This document shows, one piece after another, positions 19,006-62,882 of a stretch of DNA of 64,000 nt. Source of the DNA: Caldimonas tepidiphila (GTDB lineage: Bacteria; Pseudomonadota; Gammaproteobacteria; Burkholderiales; Burkholderiaceae_C); NCBI RefSeq assembly GCF_003569765.1, contig NZ_KZ983957.1, forward strand, positions 62,001-126,000, in the 5' to 3' direction. Below the pieces are notes generated by a model. That model did not search any database. It was not told the DNA's origin and saw nothing but the letters and a program-made list of their open reading frames with translations. The position numbers were made by a program, and so were the translations under genes. Numbering within the stretch: the stretch's first letter is position 1; each line of letters starts with the position of its first letter.

Positions 19006-20418
19006 TCAGGGGTAGAAGGTCTCGACCGTGTAGCCGGCCAGGCGCCGCCCGGGCGTGTCGATCTCGATGGAGAGCGCGATTTGCGCGCGCGGCGCGATGC
19101 GGGTCTCGTCGCTGCCGAAGTCCGCGGGGCGCAGCACGCGGCGGGCCACGACCTGCCCCGAGGTGTCGGTCAGCGTCAGCTCGAAGGCCGGCAGCGCGAG
19201 CGTCGCGTCGCTGCGGTTGCGCAGCAGCAGGCTCAGGCGGTAGCCCGAGCCGCCCGGCGCGGCGTCGGCCAGCGCGCTGTGGTCGAGCACCACGTCGTCG
19301 ATGCGCCGCAGCGGCCCGAGCTCGCAGCCGCTCAGGCGGCACCAGCCCTCGAGCCAGGGCCGCATCGCGGGGACCTCGGCGGCCAGCACCTCGCGCTGCT
19401 GCACGAGGACCTGCAGCGCCAGCAGCAGGAGCAGCACGCCGGCGAGCGCCGCCATCGCGGCGCGCACCGCCGGCCGCTTCAGGCGCTCCTCGCGCCGGGC
19501 CTGTTTCAGGAAGCCCGGCTGGGCCGCCTCCTCGCTCTCGAGCGAGGCCGGCAGGCTCGGCCGTGCCTCGGACACGGGCTCTGCTGCCGCCGCCGCAGCC
19601 TCTGCCGGGGCCGCGGCAGCGGTGGCGACGGCCAGCTGCGCCGCAGTCGGGGAGTCGTCGCTGGCGGCGCCTGCGGGCTCGAAGTCGCTCTCGCCCAGCG
19701 TGCTGCTGAAGCGCGCATCGCTGAATTCCGGGCCGGCGGAGGCCGGCTCGCCGGGAGCCGGCCAGGCCGCGTCGGCGTCCTGGTCCTCGAAGAAGCGCGA
19801 ATCGAGCACGTCGGCGCTGGTGGCCGCGTCGTCGTCGTCCGACGGGGCCGCCAGCAGGCGGGCCGGGCGCAGCAGGCTGGCATCGTCGCGCCGCGGCGTC
19901 TCGACCGAGGAGGGCGCCGCTGCGGCACCTGGCGGTCGCGGTGCCGCGAGCGGCGGGTCCTTGGGCAGAACGGATGCGGACGGGGAGGCGGCCGGCGGCG
20001 GCACGCCGAGCCCAGTCGCCGCCTGCGAGGCGCGGGGCGCGAGCGGCGCCACGGGGCCGATCTCGTCGAAGGGGACCGTGTCCGCGTCCTCGTCGTGTGG
20101 CGTGGCGGCCGGCGCAGGGGGCGGTTCCGAAGGCGGTGCGGGGGGCTCGGGCGGCGCCGCAACGGCTGCCCGGGCTTGCTGCGCGCTGCCCGCCGCTGCC
20201 GCGGCGGGCGGGGGCGGTGCGGCCTCACCCGTGCCGGCATCGGCTCCGCCGCCCGGCGCCGAGGGCGTGTCCTGGGGATCGAACTCGAACAGGCTGTCGA
20301 GCGCGCAGAACACCTCGCCGCATCGTCCGCAGCGCACCCAGCCCTCCGAGACCTTCAACTGGTCTCGCACCACGCGGAAGGTGGTGCCGCACGAAGGACA
20401 GGAGGTGGCGAAGCTCAT
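19006..20418 (-). CDS. zinc-ribbon (MJ0042-type) and DUF3426 membrane protein
   Basis: A 470-residue protein of unknown role. The N-terminus is a zinc ribbon (cysteines 7, 10, 30 and 33: CPSCGTTF and CGRCGEVF). A long Ala/Pro/acidic low-complexity region follows (about 45-310), then one membrane helix (about 322-345), and a C-terminal DUF3426 domain with a beta-rich, probably periplasmic segment. The start at 20418 places the zinc ribbon at the N-terminus; the frame is open 14 codons further. It lies between prmA and the kinase, as commonly seen in Burkholderiales. Confidence 0.85.
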   Translation of the reverse strand: MSFATSCPSCGTTFRVVRDQLKVSEGWVRCGRCGEVFCALDSLFEFDPQDTPSAPGGGADAGTGEAAPPPPAAAAAGSAQQARAAVAAPPEPPAPPSEPPPAPAATPHDEDADTVPFDEIGPVAPLAPRASQAATGLGVPPPAASPSASVLPKDPPLAAPRPPGAAAAPSSVETPRRDDASLLRPARLLAAPSDDDDAATSADVLDSRFFEDQDADAAWPAPGEPASAGPEFSDARFSSTLGESDFEPAGAASDDSPTAAQLAVATAAAAPAEAAAAAAEPVSEARPSLPASLESEEAAQPGFLKQARREERLKRPAVRAAMAALAGVLLLLLALQVLVQQREVLAAEVPAMRPWLEGWCRLSGCELGPLRRIDDVVLDHSALADAAPGGSGYRLSLLLRNRSDATLALPAFELTLTDTSGQVVARRVLRPADFGSDETRIAPRAQIALSIEIDTPGRRLAGYTVETFYP

Positions 20419-39241: not shown

Positions 39242-39664
39242 GTGAGCGAAACTGCAACGCAAATGACAGCACGCGCCGTGCCCGAAGGGGCCACTGCCAT
39301 CAAGGTGCTGGTCATCGACGACAGCAACACGATTCGCCGCAGCGCCGAGATCTTCCTCAAGCAGGGTGGCTACCAGGTGGTGCTGGCCGAAGACGGCTTC
39401 GATGCACTGGCCAAGGTCAACGACCATGAGCCGCACCTCATCTTCTGCGACATCCTGATGCCGCGTCTCGACGGCTATCAGACCTGCGCCATCATCAAGC
39501 GCAACCCCCGTTTCGCGTCCGTGCCCGTGATCATGCTGTCCTCCAAGGACGGCCTGTTCGACAAGGCGCGCGGCCGCATGGTGGGTTCGCAGGACTATCT
39601 CACCAAGCCGTTCACGAAGGACCAGTTGCTGCAGGCCGTGCAGCAGCACGGGCGCGGCGGCTGA
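39242..39664 (+). CDS. pilG: PilG-type single-domain response regulator
   Basis: A CheY-like protein of the Pil-Chp system that promotes type IV pilus extension in Pseudomonas. The 140 residues have an N-terminal extension (about 1-20), then receiver-domain acidic pair Asp26/Asp27, phospho-acceptor Asp70 (IFCDILMP) and lysine in YLTKPF. GTG 39242 has GGAGAGGG before it; ATG 39263 is possible. First of the chemosensory genes. Confidence 0.92.
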   Translation: MSETATQMTARAVPEGATAIKVLVIDDSNTIRRSAEIFLKQGGYQVVLAEDGFDALAKVNDHEPHLIFCDILMPRLDGYQTCAIIKRNPRFASVPVIMLSSKDGLFDKARGRMVGSQDYLTKPFTKDQLLQAVQQHGRGG

Positions 39665-39781: not shown

Positions 39782-40147
39782 ATGCCAGTCAAAAAGATCC
39801 TGCTGGTCGACGATTCGAAGACCGAGCTGCACTACCTCTCCGAGCTGCTCGTCAAGAAGGGCTACGCGGTGCGCACCGCCGAGAACGGCGAGGAGGCGCA
39901 CAAGCGTCTGGCCGAGGACAAGCCCGATCTGATCCTGATGGATGTCGTGATGCCGGGCCAGAACGGTTTCCAGCTCACGCGCTCCATCACCCGCGACCCG
40001 AACTTCGCCGACGTGCCGGTGATCATGTGCACCAGCAAGAACCAGGAGACCGACCGGGTCTGGGGCATGCGCCAGGGTGCGCGCGACTACGTCGTCAAGC
40101 CGGTCGACCCCGACGAACTGTTCGCCAAGATCAAGGCGTTTGACTGA
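39782..40147 (+). CDS. pilH: PilH-type single-domain response regulator
   Basis: The second CheY-like protein of the Pil-Chp pathway, opposing PilG and acting on the retraction side in Pseudomonas. The 121 residues are little more than the receiver domain, with Asp10/Asp11, phospho-acceptor Asp54 (ILMDVVMPG) and YVVKPVD. It follows pilG after a 117-base gap and a GGAAGC site. Confidence 0.93.
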   Translation: MPVKKILLVDDSKTELHYLSELLVKKGYAVRTAENGEEAHKRLAEDKPDLILMDVVMPGQNGFQLTRSITRDPNFADVPVIMCTSKNQETDRVWGMRQGARDYVVKPVDPDELFAKIKAFD

Positions 40148-43392: not shown

Positions 43393-46300
43393 ATGGACAG
43401 CAATCGCGACACCCCACCGCATGACGACCTCAGCGCCCTGGCGTGGGTCCAGGAAGAGCTGCGCAAGTCGCTCGAAGCGTCGAACAAGGCGCTGCACCGT
43501 TTCCTGAAGGAGGCCGAAAGTGCCGGCGCCTCCGATGTCGATGACGTCGATCCGGCCATCCTGCGCGGCGCACGCCAGCAGCTTCACCAGAGCGCGGGTG
43601 CCCTCGAGCTGGTCGGGCTGAGCGCCGCCGCGCACCTGCTGCGGGCCGTCGAGGCGGCCGTGCAGCGCTTCGTGCTCAAGCCTCACAAGCTCGACCGCGC
43701 CGCAGTGGAGGTGCTCGAGCGGGCCGCCTTCGCGCTGATGGACTACCTCGCCCGCCTGCTCGCAGGCCGCAAGGTCTCGCCCGTGGCGCTGTTCCCGCAG
43801 TACAGCGCGGTGCAGAAGCTCGCCGGGGCGGAGCGCGTGCATCCCGCCGACCTGTGGAGCTTCGACTGGCGCTGGATCGAGCTGCCGGCCGAGCCCGGCA
43901 TCGCGGCGCGCGCCGCGGACGCCGCCGCGCGCAACGAGATGGAGCGGCTGCTGCTGACGATGATGCGGCAGCCGGCCGCGGTGGCTGTGGTGGCCGCGCG
44001 CATGAGCGAGCTGTGCGCCGGCCTCGGCGCGCAGGCTCCGACATTGCAGACGCGCAGCTTCTGGCGCCTGGCGGCCGCCTTCTTCCAGGGCCAGGCGCTG
44101 GGCCTGCTGCCCAACGACGTCTACACCAAGCGCGTCGCCTCGCGCGTGCTGGCGCAGTTCGGCCAGCTCGGCCGCGGCGAGTCGGAGGTCTCGGACCGCC
44201 TCGCGCAGGACCTGCTCTTCTTCTGCGCCCAGTGCGTGCCGTCGCAGTCCACGCCGGCGCCGCGTGTCGCCGCGGTGCGCCGCGCCTACGGGCTCGAGCA
44301 GGCCGTCCCGGTGAGCTACGAGGAGTCGCACCTCGGGCGTTTCGACCCGGCACTGCTGCTGCAGGCCCGCAAGCGGGTGGCGGCCGCCAAGGACTCTTGG
44401 TCGGCAGTGGCCGGCGGCGAGATGCACCGGCTGCACAGCCTCAACGAGCAGTTCAGCCTAGTGGGGGATTCCCTGCGCCGCATCTATCCCGGCGGGGAGG
44501 TGCTGGCCGAGGCGCTGCAGCAGGCCGTGGTGCAGACCGTCAATGCCCGGGGCGCGCTGAGCGCGCCGCTGGCGATGGAGGTCGCGACCAGCGTGCTCTA
44601 TCTCGAAGCCTCGCTGGAGGATGCGGACTTCGACGATCCGGCCCAGGTCTCGCGCACGACGCGGCTGGCCGAGCGCATCACCGCGGTGCGGCACGGGCAG
44701 AAGCCCGAGCCGCTCGAAGCCTGGATGGAGGACCTCTACCGCCGTGTCTCGGACCGCCAGACGATGGGCAGCGTGGTGCAGGAGCTGCGCGCTTCGCTGA
44801 GCGATGCCGAGGAGCACATCGACCAGTTCTTCCGCAAGCCCGAGGACGTCGCGGCGCTCGTCACGGTGCCGGCGCAGCTCGGCGCGATGCGCGGCGTGCT
44901 GTCGGTGCTCGGCCTGAAGCATGCGTCGCAGGCCGTGGTGCGCATGCGCGACGACGTCGATGCGCTCATCTCGGGCGGGTCCGGCGAGCCAGGCCCGGCA
45001 CGCGAGGCGATGTTCCACCGTCTCGCCGGCAACCTCAGCGCCCTCGGCTTCCTGATCGACATGGTCAGCGTCCAGCCGAACCTGGCCAAGAGCCTGTTCG
45101 TCTTCGACGAGGCGACCGGCGAGTTGCGCCCCCTGATGGGGCGTGCCGTCGAACATCCGCTGCCTGCCGCATCCTCCGGCGAGTCGCAGGCCCCCGCCGC
45201 GCCGGCTTTCGTGCCGCAAGCAGCGCAGCGGCCCGAAGCGCCGCCGGCCCTGGTGGCGGCGCTGGCGGTCGCACAGCAGCCCGCCGCGGCGCTGGCTGCC
45301 GAGGCGGCCGGCCTCCCGCCGGTCCCCGACGCTCCCCCGGTTGCAGCCGAGGGAGCGTCGGCCGCGGTGCCCACGGTGCCCGAGCCCATGCGCCCCGCTT
45401 CGCTGCCGGTAGGCCCGAGGGCGGAGGTGCCGGCGCCAGTCGCCGAGAAGCCCGCGGCCGCACCAGCCATGCCACATCCGGCCGTGGCGCCCGCGGTGCC
45501 AGCCGCGACGCCGGCTTCGGCTCCCGCCGCCCCGGTGGCTGCCGCGCCTGCCACGTTGCCGCCCGCGGTGAATCCCGCGCCCCTGCTGCCGCCCGCGCTG
45601 GTCGACGAGGAGGTGGACGCGGAGATGCGGGAGATCTTCCTCGAGGAGGCGGCGGAGGTGCTGGTCCAGGCCGGGGAGGGGCTCGACCAGCTGGCTGCCC
45701 ACCGCGGCGATGCCGACCAGCTCACCGTGGTCCGCCGCGCCTTCCACACGCTCAAGGGCAGCGCCCGCATGGTCGGCCTGAAGGACTTCGGTGAAGCCGG
45801 CTGGGCCTGCGAGCAGCTCTACAACCTCTGGCTGGCCGAGCAGCGCCCCGCGAGCAAGGATCTGCTGTCCCTGAGCCGCGAAGTGCTGGCCTACATGTCC
45901 GCCTGGGTGCAGGAAATCGCCGCCGGCACCCCCCCGACCCACCAGTCGCCCCCGGTGCGCGTGGCGGCCGATGCGCTGCGCCTCGAAGGCCGGGTGGTGC
46001 CGCTTGCCAGCATCGCGATTCCGCATGCCGAGGTCCAGCCGGCAGCGGCCGAACCGGTCGCCACCGTTCCCGAGGCTCCGGCCGTCGAAGAGTCGGCCCT
46101 CGAGCAGCCGGTCCTGCCGGCTGTGATCGACGCCGGGCCGGCCGAGCCGGTGCTCGCGGTGCCGGACGTGGCGCTGCCCCTGCCGAGCGAAGCCGGTGAA
46201 GGGATGCAGGACGTCGCGGCCCCGGCGATTCCCGCGACCGAGCCGGTCGTCGAGCTCTCGTTCGACGGCTTCGAACTCGAGGCCTCTTCGGCTGCCGAGG

Positions 46301-49300
46301 CGGCACCCGCGCCCCTCGATCTGCCGGAAGCGGCAGCGCAGCCCGCGACCGAGCCCGCGCCGCAGGCCTCCGCCACAGTGGAGGACCTCGCGCCCTCGTT
46401 CGACGCCCCAGTGTTCGCGCCGCAAGCCGTCGAGTCCCCGGAGATCCCGCCGGCCTCCGACGCGGCGGCCGATTTCCCGTTCGACGACTTCGACCTCGAG
46501 ATCGTCGCCGCCACGGAGGCCGTCGAGGCGCCCCTGCCGGAAGCGGCCACCCTCCTCGCGCCCGAGCCGGCGCCGGAGGCGGTCGGGCTGGCCGGCGAGG
46601 GCATGACGCCGACCGTCGAGCCGACTGAGCCGCCGGCCGTCGAGCCCGAAGCGGCCGTTGCGGACTCCGCGGTGTCCGGACTGCCGGCCGATTTGCCGTT
46701 CGAAGGCTTCGAGCTCGAGGTGGCCTCAGTCGTGGCCACCGTGGAGGAGCCGCCTGCGGTAGAGGCAGCTTCTTGCGTCCTGCCCGCCGCTGCCGAAGAG
46801 GGCCCGGTGCCGGCGGAGCAGGCCGACGCCTTCGACCCCGCCGACCTCGCGTCCCCGGTGACCGGGGAGGCCGAGGCGGTCGAGCTTCCTGCCCTGCAGG
46901 CGCCGTTCGATGCGGCGTTCGAGCTGCCGCCGCTCGAGGCCGAGCAAGGCGAGGGCGCCACACTGCCGGGCGAGGCTGCGGTCGAGTTCGTTGCCGATCT
47001 TTCCTCCGGCACGCCTGCTCCCGCGATCGCTACGGCCGAGGACGCGGTCGACGCGGCCCGGGTCGCCGAGTCCGCCGACACGTCTGCCTTGACGGTCGAG
47101 TTCTCGGCGCCGGATTTCGACCTGCTGTTCGGAACGGAGCCAGTGGCCGCCCCGGCGGCTCCGCAGCCCTCTGCGCAACAGGACGAAGCTGCGACCCTCC
47201 CGGCAGCGACCGCGATGGACGAGGCACCGGCCGCGTTCGCGCAGCGGACGGGCGACGCGGACGAGTCTGTCATCGGTGCGACGCCGGATGCCGTGCAGCC
47301 GGCCCTGCCGGAGCCCGGCGAGCCGGCCGAAGCGACTGCGGTCGCGGACCTCGGGGCGCTCGATTTCGAGTTCGAGATCCCGGCGCCGGGCGCCGAGCCG
47401 CCGTCCCATGACGCGGGTCGTATCGATTTCGATCTCGATTTCGGGCTTGCGGGTGCGGCAGCCGATGCCGCGGAATTCTCCACGCCCGCGCAGGGGGAGC
47501 CCGTGCCGGCCGAGTCGGTGTTGCCGCCGGAATTCGGCGTCTCCGATCTCGCCGCAGCTGCGGAGACGCTCCTGGCCGGGTTGGCGACGGAGCCGGCACA
47601 GGACGCGCTGCTCCCGGCCGAGCCGCAAGCGGTGTCCGCTGCGGCGGACGATCAGCCCGCTGCGCAGCCGGCGGCTGACCTCGCGGAGCCGGCCGGCGAC
47701 ATGCCGGACGCCGAGGCCGGTGCCTTCGCGGTCGAGGAGGAGCTCACGAGCAGCGACGACCTCGTCAAGGCCATCGGCCCGCTGCGGGTGGCGACGCCGC
47801 TGTTCAACATCTATCTCGCCGAGGCCGACGAGCTGTCGCTGCGACTGTGCGCCGAACTGGGCGAGTGGGCGGTGGAGCCGACCCAGCAGCCCAGCGAGCT
47901 CGCGATCGCCGCGGCCCACTCGCTTGCCGGCTGTTCCGCCACCGTGGGCTTCTCGGAACTGTCGCAGCTGGCGCGCCAGCTCGAGCATGCCCTGATGCGC
48001 ACGCAGACGATCGGCTTCGGCCTCCCGCAGGAAGCCTTGCTGTTCGGGGACGTGGCCGAGGAGATCCGCAGCCTGCTGCACCAGTTCGCCGCCGGCTTCC
48101 TCGGAAGCCCGCAGCCGCTGCTGCTCGAGCGCTTGGCTGCGCACGAACTGGATTCGGCGCAGCGCCTGGGCGAGGCGAACCGCAATCCCGCCGCGGCCGA
48201 CGAGCCGGAGATCGATCCGGCGGCCTTCGAGATGGAGCCGCTGCTCGGCGACGAGGCGCTGCTGCCCGCAGGCGTCGAGCCGGCGGCGTTTGCGGCATCC
48301 GGCGAGGACGACACGAGGAGCCCGGCGGCGCCGGCTTCAGAGGAGGCGATTCGTCCCGAGGAGCCCCAGGCGCTTCAGGAGCCGGCCGCGATGGAGGCGG
48401 TCGCCGCGCCGCCTGCCGACGAGGCCGACGCTGCGGAGCCTGTGCTTTTGCTGCCGGAATCCGGCGAGGTCGCGGCGCCGGCCGACGAGGCCGCCCCCGT
48501 GCCGCAGCCGGCCGCCGCGTCGCTGCGCGAGGACAGCGCGCTGGTCGAACTGATGCGCTCCGGCGTGACTTCGCTCGAGACGCTGGAGCCGCTGGCGCCG
48601 GTGACGCCGCGCACCGAGTCCGGGGTGCGGCGCCAGGACATCGACGACGATATCGATGCGGTCGACGCGGTCGATACCGACCTGTTCCCGATCTTCGAGG
48701 AGGAGGCCGAGGAACTGCTGCCCAAGCTGGCCGGCGAAATGCGCGAATGGCTGCAGCAGCCGGGCGAGCATGCGGTGGCCAATGCCTGCATGCGCACGCT
48801 GCACACCCTCAAGGGCGGTGCCCGCCTCGCCGGCGCGATGCGCTTGGGCGAGCTGGCCCACCGGCTCGAGACGAGCATCGAGCGCCTGATGGCGCGCGGC
48901 AACATCGTCTCCGCCGACGTGGAGGCGCTGCAGGCCAAGGTCGACGCGTTGGCGGCCACCTTCGAGGCCCTGCGCTCGATGGATGCGCAGGCCTATGCCG
49001 ACGCGGCGGCCCTGCTGCACGAGTCGGCTCAGCCCGCTGCGCCGCAGCCGGCCGCGATGCCGGTCGTGCCGGCCGGGTCCGTTGCGACCGAGATCGGCGC
49101 CGAGGCCGGTGCTCAGGCGCTGCTGCCTGCCGTCGAGTCCCTGCTGCCGATCGACTGGTCGCGCTTCACGCCGCATTCCGGGCTTGCGCGTGCCGCGGTC
49201 CCGCGCGGCACGTCGGGCGGCCAGACCCTGGTGCGGGTGCGCGCGCAGCTGCTCGACCGCCTCGTCGGCGAGGCGGGCGAGGTGAGCATCACGCGCGCGC

Positions 49301-51075
49301 GCCTGGAGGCGGAGCTCGGCAGCATCCGCAGCTCGGTGGTTGACCTGACCGACAACCTGGAGCGCCTGCGCCAGCAGCTGCGCGACATCGAGCTGCAGGC
49401 CGAGACCCAGATGGCCACCCGCATGGAGGCTGCCAAGGCCGAGGGCCACCAGTTCGATCCGCTCGAGTTCGACCGCTTCACGCGCTTCCAGGAAATCACG
49501 CGCATGATGGCCGAGTCGGTCAACGACGTGCACACCGTGCAGCGCACGCTGATGCGCACGCTGCAGACTGCCGAGGACGAGCTGGCCGCGCAGGCGCGGC
49601 TGACGCGCGACCTGCAGGACGACCTGCTGCGCACCCGCATGGTGGAGTTCGAGGGCATGTTCGAGCGCCTCTACCGCGTCGTGCGCCAGGCCGCCAAGGA
49701 GTCGGGCAAGCAGGTCCGGCTCGACATCGTCGGTGGCTCGATCGAGGTCGACCGCGGCGTCCTGGAGCGCATGACCGGTCCGTTCGAGCACCTGCTGCGC
49801 AACGCCGTGACGCACGGCATCGAGTCGCCCGAGCAGCGGGCGGCGGCGGGCAAGGACCCGATCGGCACCATCCTCATCTCGCTGCAGCAGGAGGGCAACG
49901 AGGTGATGGTGGAGTTCCGCGACGACGGGGCCGGCCTGAACCTGCAGCGCATCCGCGACAAGGCCGTCGCGTCCGGCAAGATCCACCCCGACGCCAGGCT
50001 CAGCGACGAGGAGACCGCGGCGCTGATCTTCCTGCCCGGCCTGACCACGGCCGAGACGGTGACCGAGCTGGCCGGGCGCGGCGTCGGCATGGACGTGGTG
50101 CGCTCGGAGGTCAACGCGATGGGCGGCCGCATCGAGACGGCGACCGCCGCCGGGCAGGGCACCCGCCTGCGCCTGGTGCTGCCGCTGACCACCGCGGTCA
50201 CCCAGGTGGTGATGCTGCGTTGCGGCGAGACGGTGGTCGGCGTGCCGGCGAGCCTGATCGAGATCGTGCGGCGCGGCCGCATTGAGGAGGTGGCGCACGC
50301 CCACGCGAGCGGCGTCTTCGCGGTCGGCGAGCAGTCGCTGCCGTTCTTCTGGCTCGGCGCGCTGCTGCAGTCCAGCGGCCACAGCAACGAGACGCCGGCG
50401 CGCACCGTGCCGGTCGTGATCGTGCGCAGCGCGAGCCAGCGGGTCGCACTGCATGTCGACGAGGTGCTCGGCCACCAGGAAGTGGTGGTGAAGAACCTCG
50501 GGCCGCAACTGTCGCGCCTGCCCGGCCTGGCCGGCATGACACTGCTCGCGTCCGGGGCGGTGGGTCTGATCTACAACCCGGTGGCGCTCGCCACGGTGTA
50601 CGGCAGGACGGCGCGCGAGCTGACGCTGCAGGCCCAGGCCGCGGGCGCACAGGCCGCCACGCCGAGTGCCCGCGAGGCTGCCGAGGCCGAGGCCGTCGTG
50701 CCGCTGGTGCTGGTGGTGGACGACTCGCTGACCGTGCGCCGCGTCACGCAGCGCCTGCTGGTGCGCGAGGGCTACCGCGTCGCGCTGGCCAAGGACGGCC
50801 TCGAGGCGCTGGAGCGGCTGGCGGAGGAGCGCCCGGCCGTGGTGCTCAGCGACATCGAGATGCCGCGCATGGACGGCTTCGATCTGGTGCGCAACATGCG
50901 CGCCGACGCGGGGCTGGCGCACCTGCCGGTTATCATGATCACTTCGCGGATCGCGCAGAAGCACCGCGACTATGCGGCCGAACTCGGCGTCGACCACTAC
51001 CTCGGCAAGCCTTACAGCGAGGAGGAGTTGTTGGGATTGATTGCGCAGTACTGCCGTGAGCAGCAACTCGTCTGA
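43393..51075 (+). CDS. chpA: ChpA/PilL-type hybrid chemosensory histidine kinase, 2560 aa
   Basis: The CheA-like kinase of the Pil-Chp pathway. Three Hpt domains have candidate phospho-accepting histidines: His785 (FHTLKGSARMVG), His1509 (AHSLAGCSATVG, degenerate) and His1804 (LHTLKGGARLAG). The dimerisation helix pair starts near 1950, the HATPase spans about 2120-2260 (GRGVGMDVV), then a CheW-like domain and a C-terminal receiver with Asp2487. Between about 860 and 1440 is an acidic, Ala/Pro-rich linker with a repeated FxxFxLE motif. The first 620 residues include helical degenerate Hpt-like domains. A 223-base gap with a small hairpin precedes it. Confidence 0.93.
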   Translation: MDSNRDTPPHDDLSALAWVQEELRKSLEASNKALHRFLKEAESAGASDVDDVDPAILRGARQQLHQSAGALELVGLSAAAHLLRAVEAAVQRFVLKPHKLDRAAVEVLERAAFALMDYLARLLAGRKVSPVALFPQYSAVQKLAGAERVHPADLWSFDWRWIELPAEPGIAARAADAAARNEMERLLLTMMRQPAAVAVVAARMSELCAGLGAQAPTLQTRSFWRLAAAFFQGQALGLLPNDVYTKRVASRVLAQFGQLGRGESEVSDRLAQDLLFFCAQCVPSQSTPAPRVAAVRRAYGLEQAVPVSYEESHLGRFDPALLLQARKRVAAAKDSWSAVAGGEMHRLHSLNEQFSLVGDSLRRIYPGGEVLAEALQQAVVQTVNARGALSAPLAMEVATSVLYLEASLEDADFDDPAQVSRTTRLAERITAVRHGQKPEPLEAWMEDLYRRVSDRQTMGSVVQELRASLSDAEEHIDQFFRKPEDVAALVTVPAQLGAMRGVLSVLGLKHASQAVVRMRDDVDALISGGSGEPGPAREAMFHRLAGNLSALGFLIDMVSVQPNLAKSLFVFDEATGELRPLMGRAVEHPLPAASSGESQAPAAPAFVPQAAQRPEAPPALVAALAVAQQPAAALAAEAAGLPPVPDAPPVAAEGASAAVPTVPEPMRPASLPVGPRAEVPAPVAEKPAAAPAMPHPAVAPAVPAATPASAPAAPVAAAPATLPPAVNPAPLLPPALVDEEVDAEMREIFLEEAAEVLVQAGEGLDQLAAHRGDADQLTVVRRAFHTLKGSARMVGLKDFGEAGWACEQLYNLWLAEQRPASKDLLSLSREVLAYMSAWVQEIAAGTPPTHQSPPVRVAADALRLEGRVVPLASIAIPHAEVQPAAAEPVATVPEAPAVEESALEQPVLPAVIDAGPAEPVLAVPDVALPLPSEAGEGMQDVAAPAIPATEPVVELSFDGFELEASSAAEAAPAPLDLPEAAAQPATEPAPQASATVEDLAPSFDAPVFAPQAVESPEIPPASDAAADFPFDDFDLEIVAATEAVEAPLPEAATLLAPEPAPEAVGLAGEGMTPTVEPTEPPAVEPEAAVADSAVSGLPADLPFEGFELEVASVVATVEEPPAVEAASCVLPAAAEEGPVPAEQADAFDPADLASPVTGEAEAVELPALQAPFDAAFELPPLEAEQGEGATLPGEAAVEFVADLSSGTPAPAIATAEDAVDAARVAESADTSALTVEFSAPDFDLLFGTEPVAAPAAPQPSAQQDEAATLPAATAMDEAPAAFAQRTGDADESVIGATPDAVQPALPEPGEPAEATAVADLGALDFEFEIPAPGAEPPSHDAGRIDFDLDFGLAGAAADAAEFSTPAQGEPVPAESVLPPEFGVSDLAAAAETLLAGLATEPAQDALLPAEPQAVSAAADDQPAAQPAADLAEPAGDMPDAEAGAFAVEEELTSSDDLVKAIGPLRVATPLFNIYLAEADELSLRLCAELGEWAVEPTQQPSELAIAAAHSLAGCSATVGFSELSQLARQLEHALMRTQTIGFGLPQEALLFGDVAEEIRSLLHQFAAGFLGSPQPLLLERLAAHELDSAQRLGEANRNPAAADEPEIDPAAFEMEPLLGDEALLPAGVEPAAFAASGEDDTRSPAAPASEEAIRPEEPQALQEPAAMEAVAAPPADEADAAEPVLLLPESGEVAAPADEAAPVPQPAAASLREDSALVELMRSGVTSLETLEPLAPVTPRTESGVRRQDIDDDIDAVDAVDTDLFPIFEEEAEELLPKLAGEMREWLQQPGEHAVANACMRTLHTLKGGARLAGAMRLGELAHRLETSIERLMARGNIVSADVEALQAKVDALAATFEALRSMDAQAYADAAALLHESAQPAAPQPAAMPVVPAGSVATEIGAEAGAQALLPAVESLLPIDWSRFTPHSGLARAAVPRGTSGGQTLVRVRAQLLDRLVGEAGEVSITRARLEAELGSIRSSVVDLTDNLERLRQQLRDIELQAETQMATRMEAAKAEGHQFDPLEFDRFTRFQEITRMMAESVNDVHTVQRTLMRTLQTAEDELAAQARLTRDLQDDLLRTRMVEFEGMFERLYRVVRQAAKESGKQVRLDIVGGSIEVDRGVLERMTGPFEHLLRNAVTHGIESPEQRAAAGKDPIGTILISLQQEGNEVMVEFRDDGAGLNLQRIRDKAVASGKIHPDARLSDEETAALIFLPGLTTAETVTELAGRGVGMDVVRSEVNAMGGRIETATAAGQGTRLRLVLPLTTAVTQVVMLRCGETVVGVPASLIEIVRRGRIEEVAHAHASGVFAVGEQSLPFFWLGALLQSSGHSNETPARTVPVVIVRSASQRVALHVDEVLGHQEVVVKNLGPQLSRLPGLAGMTLLASGAVGLIYNPVALATVYGRTARELTLQAQAAGAQAATPSAREAAEAEAVVPLVLVVDDSLTVRRVTQRLLVREGYRVALAKDGLEALERLAEERPAVVLSDIEMPRMDGFDLVRNMRADAGLAHLPVIMITSRIAQKHRDYAAELGVDHYLGKPYSEEELLGLIAQYCREQQLV

Positions 51076-61919: not shown

Positions 61920-62882
61920 ATGCTCTACAAACGCAATCCCCAGCTCAACCGGCACGGTGAACTGATCCACCTGCTGTCCATCGAGGGCCTGCCGCGCGCG
62001 GTGATCCACCAGATCCTGGACACCGCCGAGACCTTCCTGAGCGTCAACGACCGCGAGGTCAAGAAGGTTCCCCTGCTGCGGGGAAAAAGCGTGTTCAACC
62101 TGTTCTTCGAGAACAGCACGCGCACGCGCACCACCTTCGAGATCGCCGCCAAGCGCCTCTCGGCCGACGTGCTCAACCTCGACATCGCGAAGTCGAGCGC
62201 CTCCAAGGGCGAGAGCCTGCTCGACACGATCGCGAACCTCTCGGCGATGCACGCCGACATGTTCGTCGTGCGCCACAGCGAGAGCGGCGCGCCGTATCTC
62301 ATCGCCCAGCACTGCGCGCCGCACGTGCATGTCGTGAACGCCGGCGACGGCCGCCACGCGCACCCGACGCAGGGGCTGCTCGACATGTACACGATCCGCC
62401 ACTACAAGCGCGACTTCACCAACCTCACGGTGGCGGTGGTCGGCGACATCGTGCACTCGCGCGTCGCGCGCTCGGACATCCACGCGCTCACGACGCTCGG
62501 CGTGCCCGAGATCCGCGCGGTGGGCCCGAAGACGCTGGTGCCGGGCGATCTGCGCGAGATGGGCGTGCGCGTGTGCCACGACATGGCCGAGGGCATCCGC
62601 GACGCGGACGTCATCATCATGCTGCGACTGCAGAACGAGCGCATGAACGGCGCCATGCTGCCGAGCGCGGGCGAGTTCTTCAAGAGCTTCGGCCTGACCG
62701 AGCAGAAGCTCGCGCTCGCGAAACCCGACGCGATCGTGATGCACCCGGGCCCGATCAACCGCGGCGTCGAGATCGACTCGTCCGTCGCCGACGGGCGCCA
62801 GAGCGTGATCCTGCCGCAGGTGACCTTCGGCATCGCGGTGCGCATGGCGGTGATGTCCATCCTGGCCGGCAACGAGGCCTGA
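61920..62882 (+). CDS. pyrB: aspartate carbamoyltransferase, catalytic subunit
   Basis: Joins carbamoyl phosphate and aspartate in pyrimidine synthesis. The 320 residues match the class associated with pyrC' partners. The carbamoyl phosphate motif STRTRTTF (66-73), SKGES (about 95-99) and [11 protein letters not shown] are present. No separate pyrI regulatory subunit is seen, in line with the ATCase-DHOase complexes of pseudomonads and burkholderias. Confidence 0.96.

Follow-up and report, generated by a model that had tools for sequence, protein, structure and literature searches.

In Pseudomonas aeruginosa the polar recruitment of the response regulator PilG is reported to need the kinase ChpA and FimL together, and that of PilH to proceed via ChpA, with kinase activity not being required (PMC10519157). 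Polar recruitment of the motor PilB requires or is promoted by PilG according to a 2024 review, which gives an interaction between the two as unreported (PMC11656802), and another recent review gives the localization of ChpA itself as unknown (PMC12632253). The window considered here is a stretch of 64,000 nucleotides from the draft genome of Caldimonas tepidiphila (positions 62,001 to 126,000 of contig NZ_KZ983957.1), and contains a chpA gene whose product has a long, acidic, disordered linker with Phe-centred motifs between two of its Hpt domains. Within the linker a 73-residue unit is present in three diverged copies, and four more motif-like sites lie outside them. The presence of a like motif in the linkers of orthologous ChpA proteins, of the polar landmark FimV and of the extension ATPase PilB suggests, without proving it, a shared docking code of the cell-pole pilus machinery.

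The Hpt, HATPase_c, CheW-like and receiver domains are all matched by Pfam in the one chain, as belongs to the type IV pilus class of CheA kinases, and no other CheA-like match in the draft genome exceeds 38% identity to it over the core. Its Hpt and kinase anchors are collinear with those of 131 other non-redundant sequences, which makes these orthologous by domain order. Like ChpA of P. aeruginosa, the protein combines several Hpt domains with a CheA core and a terminal receiver, and PilG- and PilH-like receivers are encoded upstream of it. Unlike that protein, which is reported to contain nine or more phosphotransfer domains (PMC12632253), it shows three Pfam Hpt stretches, one of them located at residues 744-833, and its Hpt domains are separated by 605 residues of disorder carrying the Phe motifs. 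Hpt-type His motifs at residues 785, 1509 and 1804 put one Hpt domain before the linker and two after it, in agreement with the initial annotation, which had described three Hpt domains as flanking it. Below, the linker at residues 851-1455 is called the Hpt2-Hpt3 linker and that at residues 1601-1755 the Hpt3-Hpt4 linker. The former is rich in Ala, Pro, Glu and Asp, with 24 Phe and neither Trp nor Tyr, and at 605 residues is the longest of 132 (the others have 42-425, median 220). In a structure model of residues 1-1190 the predicted local distance difference test score (pLDDT) stays under 50 almost throughout residues 879-1190, where the fragment ends; this prediction supports its earlier description as a disordered region. 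No Pfam family matches residues 957-1350 up to E 1, and the six families matched in the whole of ChpA up to the same threshold include neither a LysM nor a FimV domain. A P2 or CheY-binding match was likewise absent both from the whole protein and from residues 957-1350 at E ≤1, in a search that involved no profile-profile comparison; P2 domains are described as being often missed by HMMER (PMC10782961).

The initial annotation had placed motifs at residues 957 (FDGFELEA), 1030 (FDDFDLEI), 1103 (FEGFELEV), 1172 (FDAAFELP) and 1242 (FDLLFG), with further sites near 1325 and 1346. All seven are exactly where they were put, the last two reading FEFEIP and FDLDFGLA, and they span nucleotides 46261-47451 of the window; the Phe residues at 1003, 1008, 1147, 1199 and 1282 had been left out of the list. 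The pattern F[DE]xF[DE]LE occurs three times in the linker, and among 20,000 shuffles of the linker eight gave one occurrence and none gave more. Searched for at the DNA level, F[DE]xF[DE]L has five places in the whole draft genome, three of them in the ChpA linker, and the reversed control has none. Self-comparison of the linker gave a best lag of 73 residues with a segment score of 95, against an all-lag maximum of 87 in 200 shuffles; masking of the motifs lowers the best lag-73 segment to 43. A 16-nucleotide DNA family also recurs in four copies that are 75-81% identical to the reference copy and spaced by 219, 219 and 219 nucleotides. The similarity of the first unit (U1) to the third (U3) is weak, its z of 2.4 being equalled in 11 of 500 shuffles, and the stretches around the fourth and fifth motifs (U4 and U5) are unrelated by alignment to any unit (z -0.7 to 1.5). 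In a periodogram of all 24 Phe the range of 66-77 residues is ordinary, as 2345 of 5000 random re-placements equal it. Since only U1, U2 and U3 align beyond shuffles and Phe is not periodic overall, a five-unit periodic array is rejected; the period of about 70 residues claimed earlier stands for three copies (73 residues, 942-1160) and falls for the fourth and fifth motifs. A recent tandem duplication at the DNA level is rejected as well, because codon agreement between residues that are identical at lag 73 is no better than random (20 of 35, 19.9 expected) and Tandem Repeats Finder reports no 219-nucleotide array. The chance-level codon sharing implies that the duplication is old, or that the likeness was selected.

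To place this array among its relatives we drew on 8 of 8 congeners, 72 of 84 family loci and 80 named loci; 15 rows in which anchors were missing or out of order were excluded and identical linkers collapsed, which retained the 131 other linkers. A single F[DE]xF[DE]L was seen in one of these 131, congeners included, F[DE]xFx[LIFMV] is absent from the linkers of all 8 congeners, and so are the units. Sites of the loose pattern number nine in the C. tepidiphila linker and at most five in any other. A conserved repeat array is thus not supported, and the array itself is private to C. tepidiphila, a species-specific curiosity beside which the shared motif is of more interest. The initial annotation had named the absence of the repeats from close relatives as a refutation and a mark of compositional drift; the absence is real for the array, and drift does not describe the motif class. 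Residues 1310-1365 compare with the other linkers at a median score of 45 (34 for shuffled sequence) and a top score of 72 (shuffled maximum 57). By this likeness in sequence the last two motifs (1325-1353) are probably ancestral and the triplication at 942-1160 is probably new. By eye, most congener linkers have one LDIDFDLDLPGLE-like and one LDLSAFEGG-like site. The wider class of the latter, [LI][DE]L[DEGSA], is represented in 93 of 129 linkers from other sequences and is absent from that of C. tepidiphila.

The surroundings of Phe in the other linkers are themselves patterned: Asp is enriched at positions -3, -1, +1 and +5, Ile, Leu and Phe at -2, and Leu and Phe at +2 and +4. The corresponding motif [DE]F[DE][LIVMF] occurs 76 times in the Hpt2-Hpt3 linkers where 7.8 are expected (about 9-fold), in 52 of 129 orthologues. 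Linkers from related species are not independent, and the test was repeated with one genome per genus: in 58 such linkers, under local shuffling, it still gave 30 occurrences against 4.7, a number that none of 300 shuffles equalled. Patterns with A or V at the F position are not enriched, and the reversed pattern is likewise enriched (25 against 4.7), the motif being symmetric. In the Hpt3-Hpt4 linker [DE]F[DE]Φ is not enriched, with 2 occurrences against 2.2 in 108 sequences and none in 44, although the Phe contents of the two linkers are close (2.41 against 2.90 per 100). Thus, the motif class is enriched over composition in orthologous linkers, as a short linear motif should be, and it is specific to one of them; together with its presence in FimV and PilB this supports the earlier assertion that the sequence is not random low complexity.

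FimV was looked at from prior knowledge, in 22 of the 55 genomes in which it was matched (20 selected by hand, one taken from a search locus, and C. tepidiphila itself), and PilB alone emerged from an unbiased genome scan. The cytoplasmic part of the C. tepidiphila FimV (G000:C9) contains LSFDLSE, LEFDLGG and LDFDMPA. Over the sample, strict [DE]F[DE]Φ is found 29 times in the cytoplasmic part where about one is expected, in 20 of 22 family genomes, and not once in the periplasmic linker. This strict count is the safer one because the looser F[DE]Φ takes in recurring KGFELLA-like sites. In FimV of outgroups from the same class the count is 34 against 3.8, with the motif in 15 of 20 genomes (hand-picked from 110). 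A single degenerate DNA pattern, scanned across the genome, returned 21 places, against 7 for the reversed control; three lie in ChpA and one is PilB (G000:C1:296261-298018), where the motif sits in an acidic linker between the MshEN and ATPase matches. Ranked by a simple disorder score PilB came sixth, behind the three ChpA sites, a frame of 817 residues, which we take to be QueA-like, and one of 156 residues; the scan frames are delimited by stop codons at both ends, and not all of them need be genes. Among the best 30 of 54 family PilB sequences (that of C. tepidiphila and 29 others), a fixed motif of the DFEFD type, [DE][FI][DE]F[DE], stands directly ahead of the ATPase part in all 30 and [DE]F[DE]Φ is in the linker of 29.

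As a comparison we took the acidic linkers of DUF3426 proteins from 22 of the 56 genomes with a match, chosen like the FimV sample. A count with F[DE][LF][DE] seemed enriched (7 against 0.3), apparently owing to an LFDLE-like stretch directly after the zinc ribbon. With [DE]F[DE]Φ these linkers are hardly enriched, the 22 giving 2 against 0.4-0.7, a number that 39 of 300 local shuffles reach. After removal of the first 25 residues F[DE]Φ stands at 4 against 2.5 and [DE]F[DE]Φ is unchanged at 2 against 0.4; the V-for-F control gives 4 against 1.5. Acidic composition alone is rejected as the source of the ChpA motifs by these linkers and by the Hpt3-Hpt4 linker. Within the window a DUF3426 zinc-ribbon protein is encoded at 19021-19443 on the reverse strand, and LF[ED][LF][ED] follows its zinc ribbon directly, as in several relatives.

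The element common to ChpA, FimV and PilB is thus an alternating acidic-hydrophobic, Phe-centred motif, roughly [LIM]-[DE]-F-[DE]-[LFIV], and it has the look expected of a shared dock for PilG that could replace the undetected P2 domain. We propose, as a reading that we favour without quite reckoning it probable, that the linker is a disordered acidic tether whose acidic-Phe motifs dock a partner common to the three proteins, most plausibly PilG, and that the motifs have been multiplied locally. The motif would most likely hold this soluble partner, PilG or possibly PilH, close to the phosphotransfer domains of ChpA, with the linker taking the place of the folded P2 domain of an ordinary CheA. 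At the pole the same regulator would be bound by FimV, with PilB as its recipient. In C. tepidiphila, growth of the linker, partly through the 73-residue duplication, has raised the number of sites from the usual 0-2 to about seven, and the extra sites may confer higher avidity or local concentration. The more ambitious version, in which the code [LIM][DE]F[DE][LFIV] on all three linkers is read by PilG as the one regulator and the number of sites is tuned by species, we consider unlikely as it stands; if true, it would explain a hand-over of the regulator from kinase to pole to motor. The route from PilG to PilB at the leading pole is posed as open in reviews (PMC11656802), and the motif makes it testable by peptides and point mutations, with the species-specific expansion of sites as a natural copy-number experiment. 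The bridging of FimV and PilG by FimL seen in P. aeruginosa may be unavailable here in that form, as a search of the draft genome at E 0.001 gave no second copy of the FimL-like N-terminal domain of ChpA.

The proposed tether would resemble the P2 domain in its position between a phosphotransfer domain and the kinase core and in concentrating a receiver protein locally, and would differ from it in being a short motif in disorder and not a fold. Receivers of the CheY type bind short acidic-hydrophobic segments of FliM and CheZ as helices; in contrast, the ChpA motif alternates, and a helix is modelled over one copy only (residues 1104-1115, pLDDT about 50), where the Hpt region of other alignment rows may have been aligned onto the linker. 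In the model of a congener, running from the linker to the C-terminus, residues 43-49 form a short linker helix of low confidence. The acidic cytoplasmic repeats of HubP and FimV are described as disordered and as varying in length and copy number among close species (PMC12918733), in which they are like the linker, and FimV has its motif; unlike those of the membrane landmark, the present repeats are in a kinase, are 73 residues long and comprise just three related units. Docking motifs in disorder are already known as a kind, and so are acidic HubP repeats; in the open-access literature searched we found neither a description of the shared motif in ChpA, FimV or PilB nor a known binding partner.

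Several observations weigh against a common PilG dock. Within the family 33 of 129 linkers lack even F[DE]Φ, and the linker between the N-terminal domain and Hpt2 has 5 sites against 0.8, all from 2 of 119 sequences. ChpA proteins of the wider class (20 of 77, hand-picked and mostly from other families) are not clearly enriched (3 against 1.1) though FimV there keeps the motif, which makes docking on ChpA a family trait at most. The A-for-F control in FimV also exceeds shuffles (22 against 6.6, in 22 of 22), probably raised by a conserved EADVYL-like segment seen in the C. tepidiphila protein, and the FimV segment tested is thus not purely disordered. The PilB motif is aligned between orthologues, so that its 30 occurrences are not 30 independent events; the acidic linker printed for PilB of Xanthomonas citri has no Phe (PMC8389850), and the six PilG partners named for X. 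campestris include PilN, PilU and PilR, and not PilB (PMC7029496). Electrostatic matching of the linker with PilG and PilH is weak: isoelectric points (pI) above 7 are found for PilG in 60% of 80 loci and for PilH in 19% of 117, in which a genome may count twice. Finally, neither the model of ChpA 1-1190 nor that of the congener places the linker confidently on ChpA's own domains, as judged by pLDDT only, which is below 50 in both linkers, with contacts and predicted aligned errors not inspected; this is a weak negative and bears on docking in cis only.

The nearest rival to a PilG dock is that the Phe motifs serve no single partner and act as hydrophobic stickers along an acidic chain, whose weak multivalent contacts co-cluster ChpA, FimV and PilB at the pole. 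The symmetry of the acid/hydrophobe alternation, with its equally enriched reversal, the drift of copy number and spacing across species, and the variable acidic repeats of HubP relatives (PMC12918733) speak for such an arrangement; since, however, one ChpA linker is enriched and the Hpt3-Hpt4 linker is not despite near Phe content, and PilB has one fixed site, we hold it doubtful on balance. That the linker is a neutral spacer, an entropic tether of drifting Ala/Pro/Glu sequence in which the repeats are chance duplications, would account for the absence of the array from congeners, the range of linker lengths from 42 to 605 residues, the unrelated U4 and U5, the lack of global periodicity and the chance-level codon identity. 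It does not account for a motif class enriched over full and local shuffles and over the Hpt3-Hpt4 linker, or for the position of the final two motifs within an orthologue-like stretch, and we judge it unlikely.

The motifs might also dock in cis, with an Hpt, the receiver, the CheW or the FimL-like domain of ChpA itself as the target, and so gate phosphotransfer; this is invited by their location between Hpt domains of a protein with its own receiver, and by the basic CheW-like domain (pI 8.2). Yet acidic pI values of 4.6-5.9 are calculated for the receiver, the Hpt domains and the N-terminal domain, the two models add their weak negative, and the motifs of FimV and PilB would be left unexplained, which makes this quite improbable. 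We hold it equally improbable that the C-terminal TPR domain of FimV recognizes the motif as a client signal, with the copies in FimV acting in cis or between FimV molecules: a role as client interface is described for that domain (PMC12918733), but the client residues examined in the HubP-PdeB pair are positive (PMC9061725) and the present motif is acidic.

Table 1. Features of the chpA locus (nucleotide positions in the window; residue numbers refer to ChpA)
Feature	Position	Strand	Evidence or remark
chpA, type IV pilus class CheA kinase	43393..51075	+	2560 residues; Pfam matches to Hpt in three stretches, to HATPase_c, CheW and a receiver
N-terminal helical domain, residues about 1-600	43393..45192	+	structure model; FimL-like by published homology of ChpA and FimL N-termini (PMC10519157)
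Hpt domain preceding linker, residues 735-850, His785	45595..45942	+	Pfam; His motif
Disordered acidic linker, residues 851-1455, 605 residues	45943..47757	+	calculated charge about -113
Repeat unit U1, residues 942-1014, FDGFELE	46216..46434	+	unit alignment
Repeat unit U2, residues 1015-1087, FDDFDLE	46435..46653	+	U1-U2 z 7.7
Repeat unit U3, residues 1088-1160, FEGFELE	46654..46872	+	U2-U3 z 3.9, U1-U3 z 2.4
Motif-like FDAAFELP, residue 1172, outside repeat units	46906..46929	+	motif scan; unit alignment
Motif-like FDLLFG, residue 1242, outside repeat units	47116..47133	+	motif scan; unit alignment
FEFEIP and IDFDLDFG, residues 1325-1353, probably ancestral motif pair	47365..47451	+	orthologue-like stretch
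Hpt-like domain 3' of linker, residues 1456-1600, His1509	47758..48192	+	Pfam; anchors; His motif
Second acidic linker, residues 1601-1755	48193..48657	+	motif-free; internal control (Hpt3-Hpt4 linker)
Hpt domain preceding kinase core, residues 1756-1870, His1804	48658..49002	+	Pfam; His motif
Kinase core, CheW-like domain and receiver domain	49165..51039	+	Pfam
PilG-like single receiver, proposed ligand	39242..39661	+	pI 8.0; named by gene order and sequence
PilH-like single receiver	39782..40144	+	named by gene order and sequence

Among the neighbouring genes PilI and PilJ were named by order and sequence, without a family search, and the receiver domain of ChpA is matched by two single receivers.

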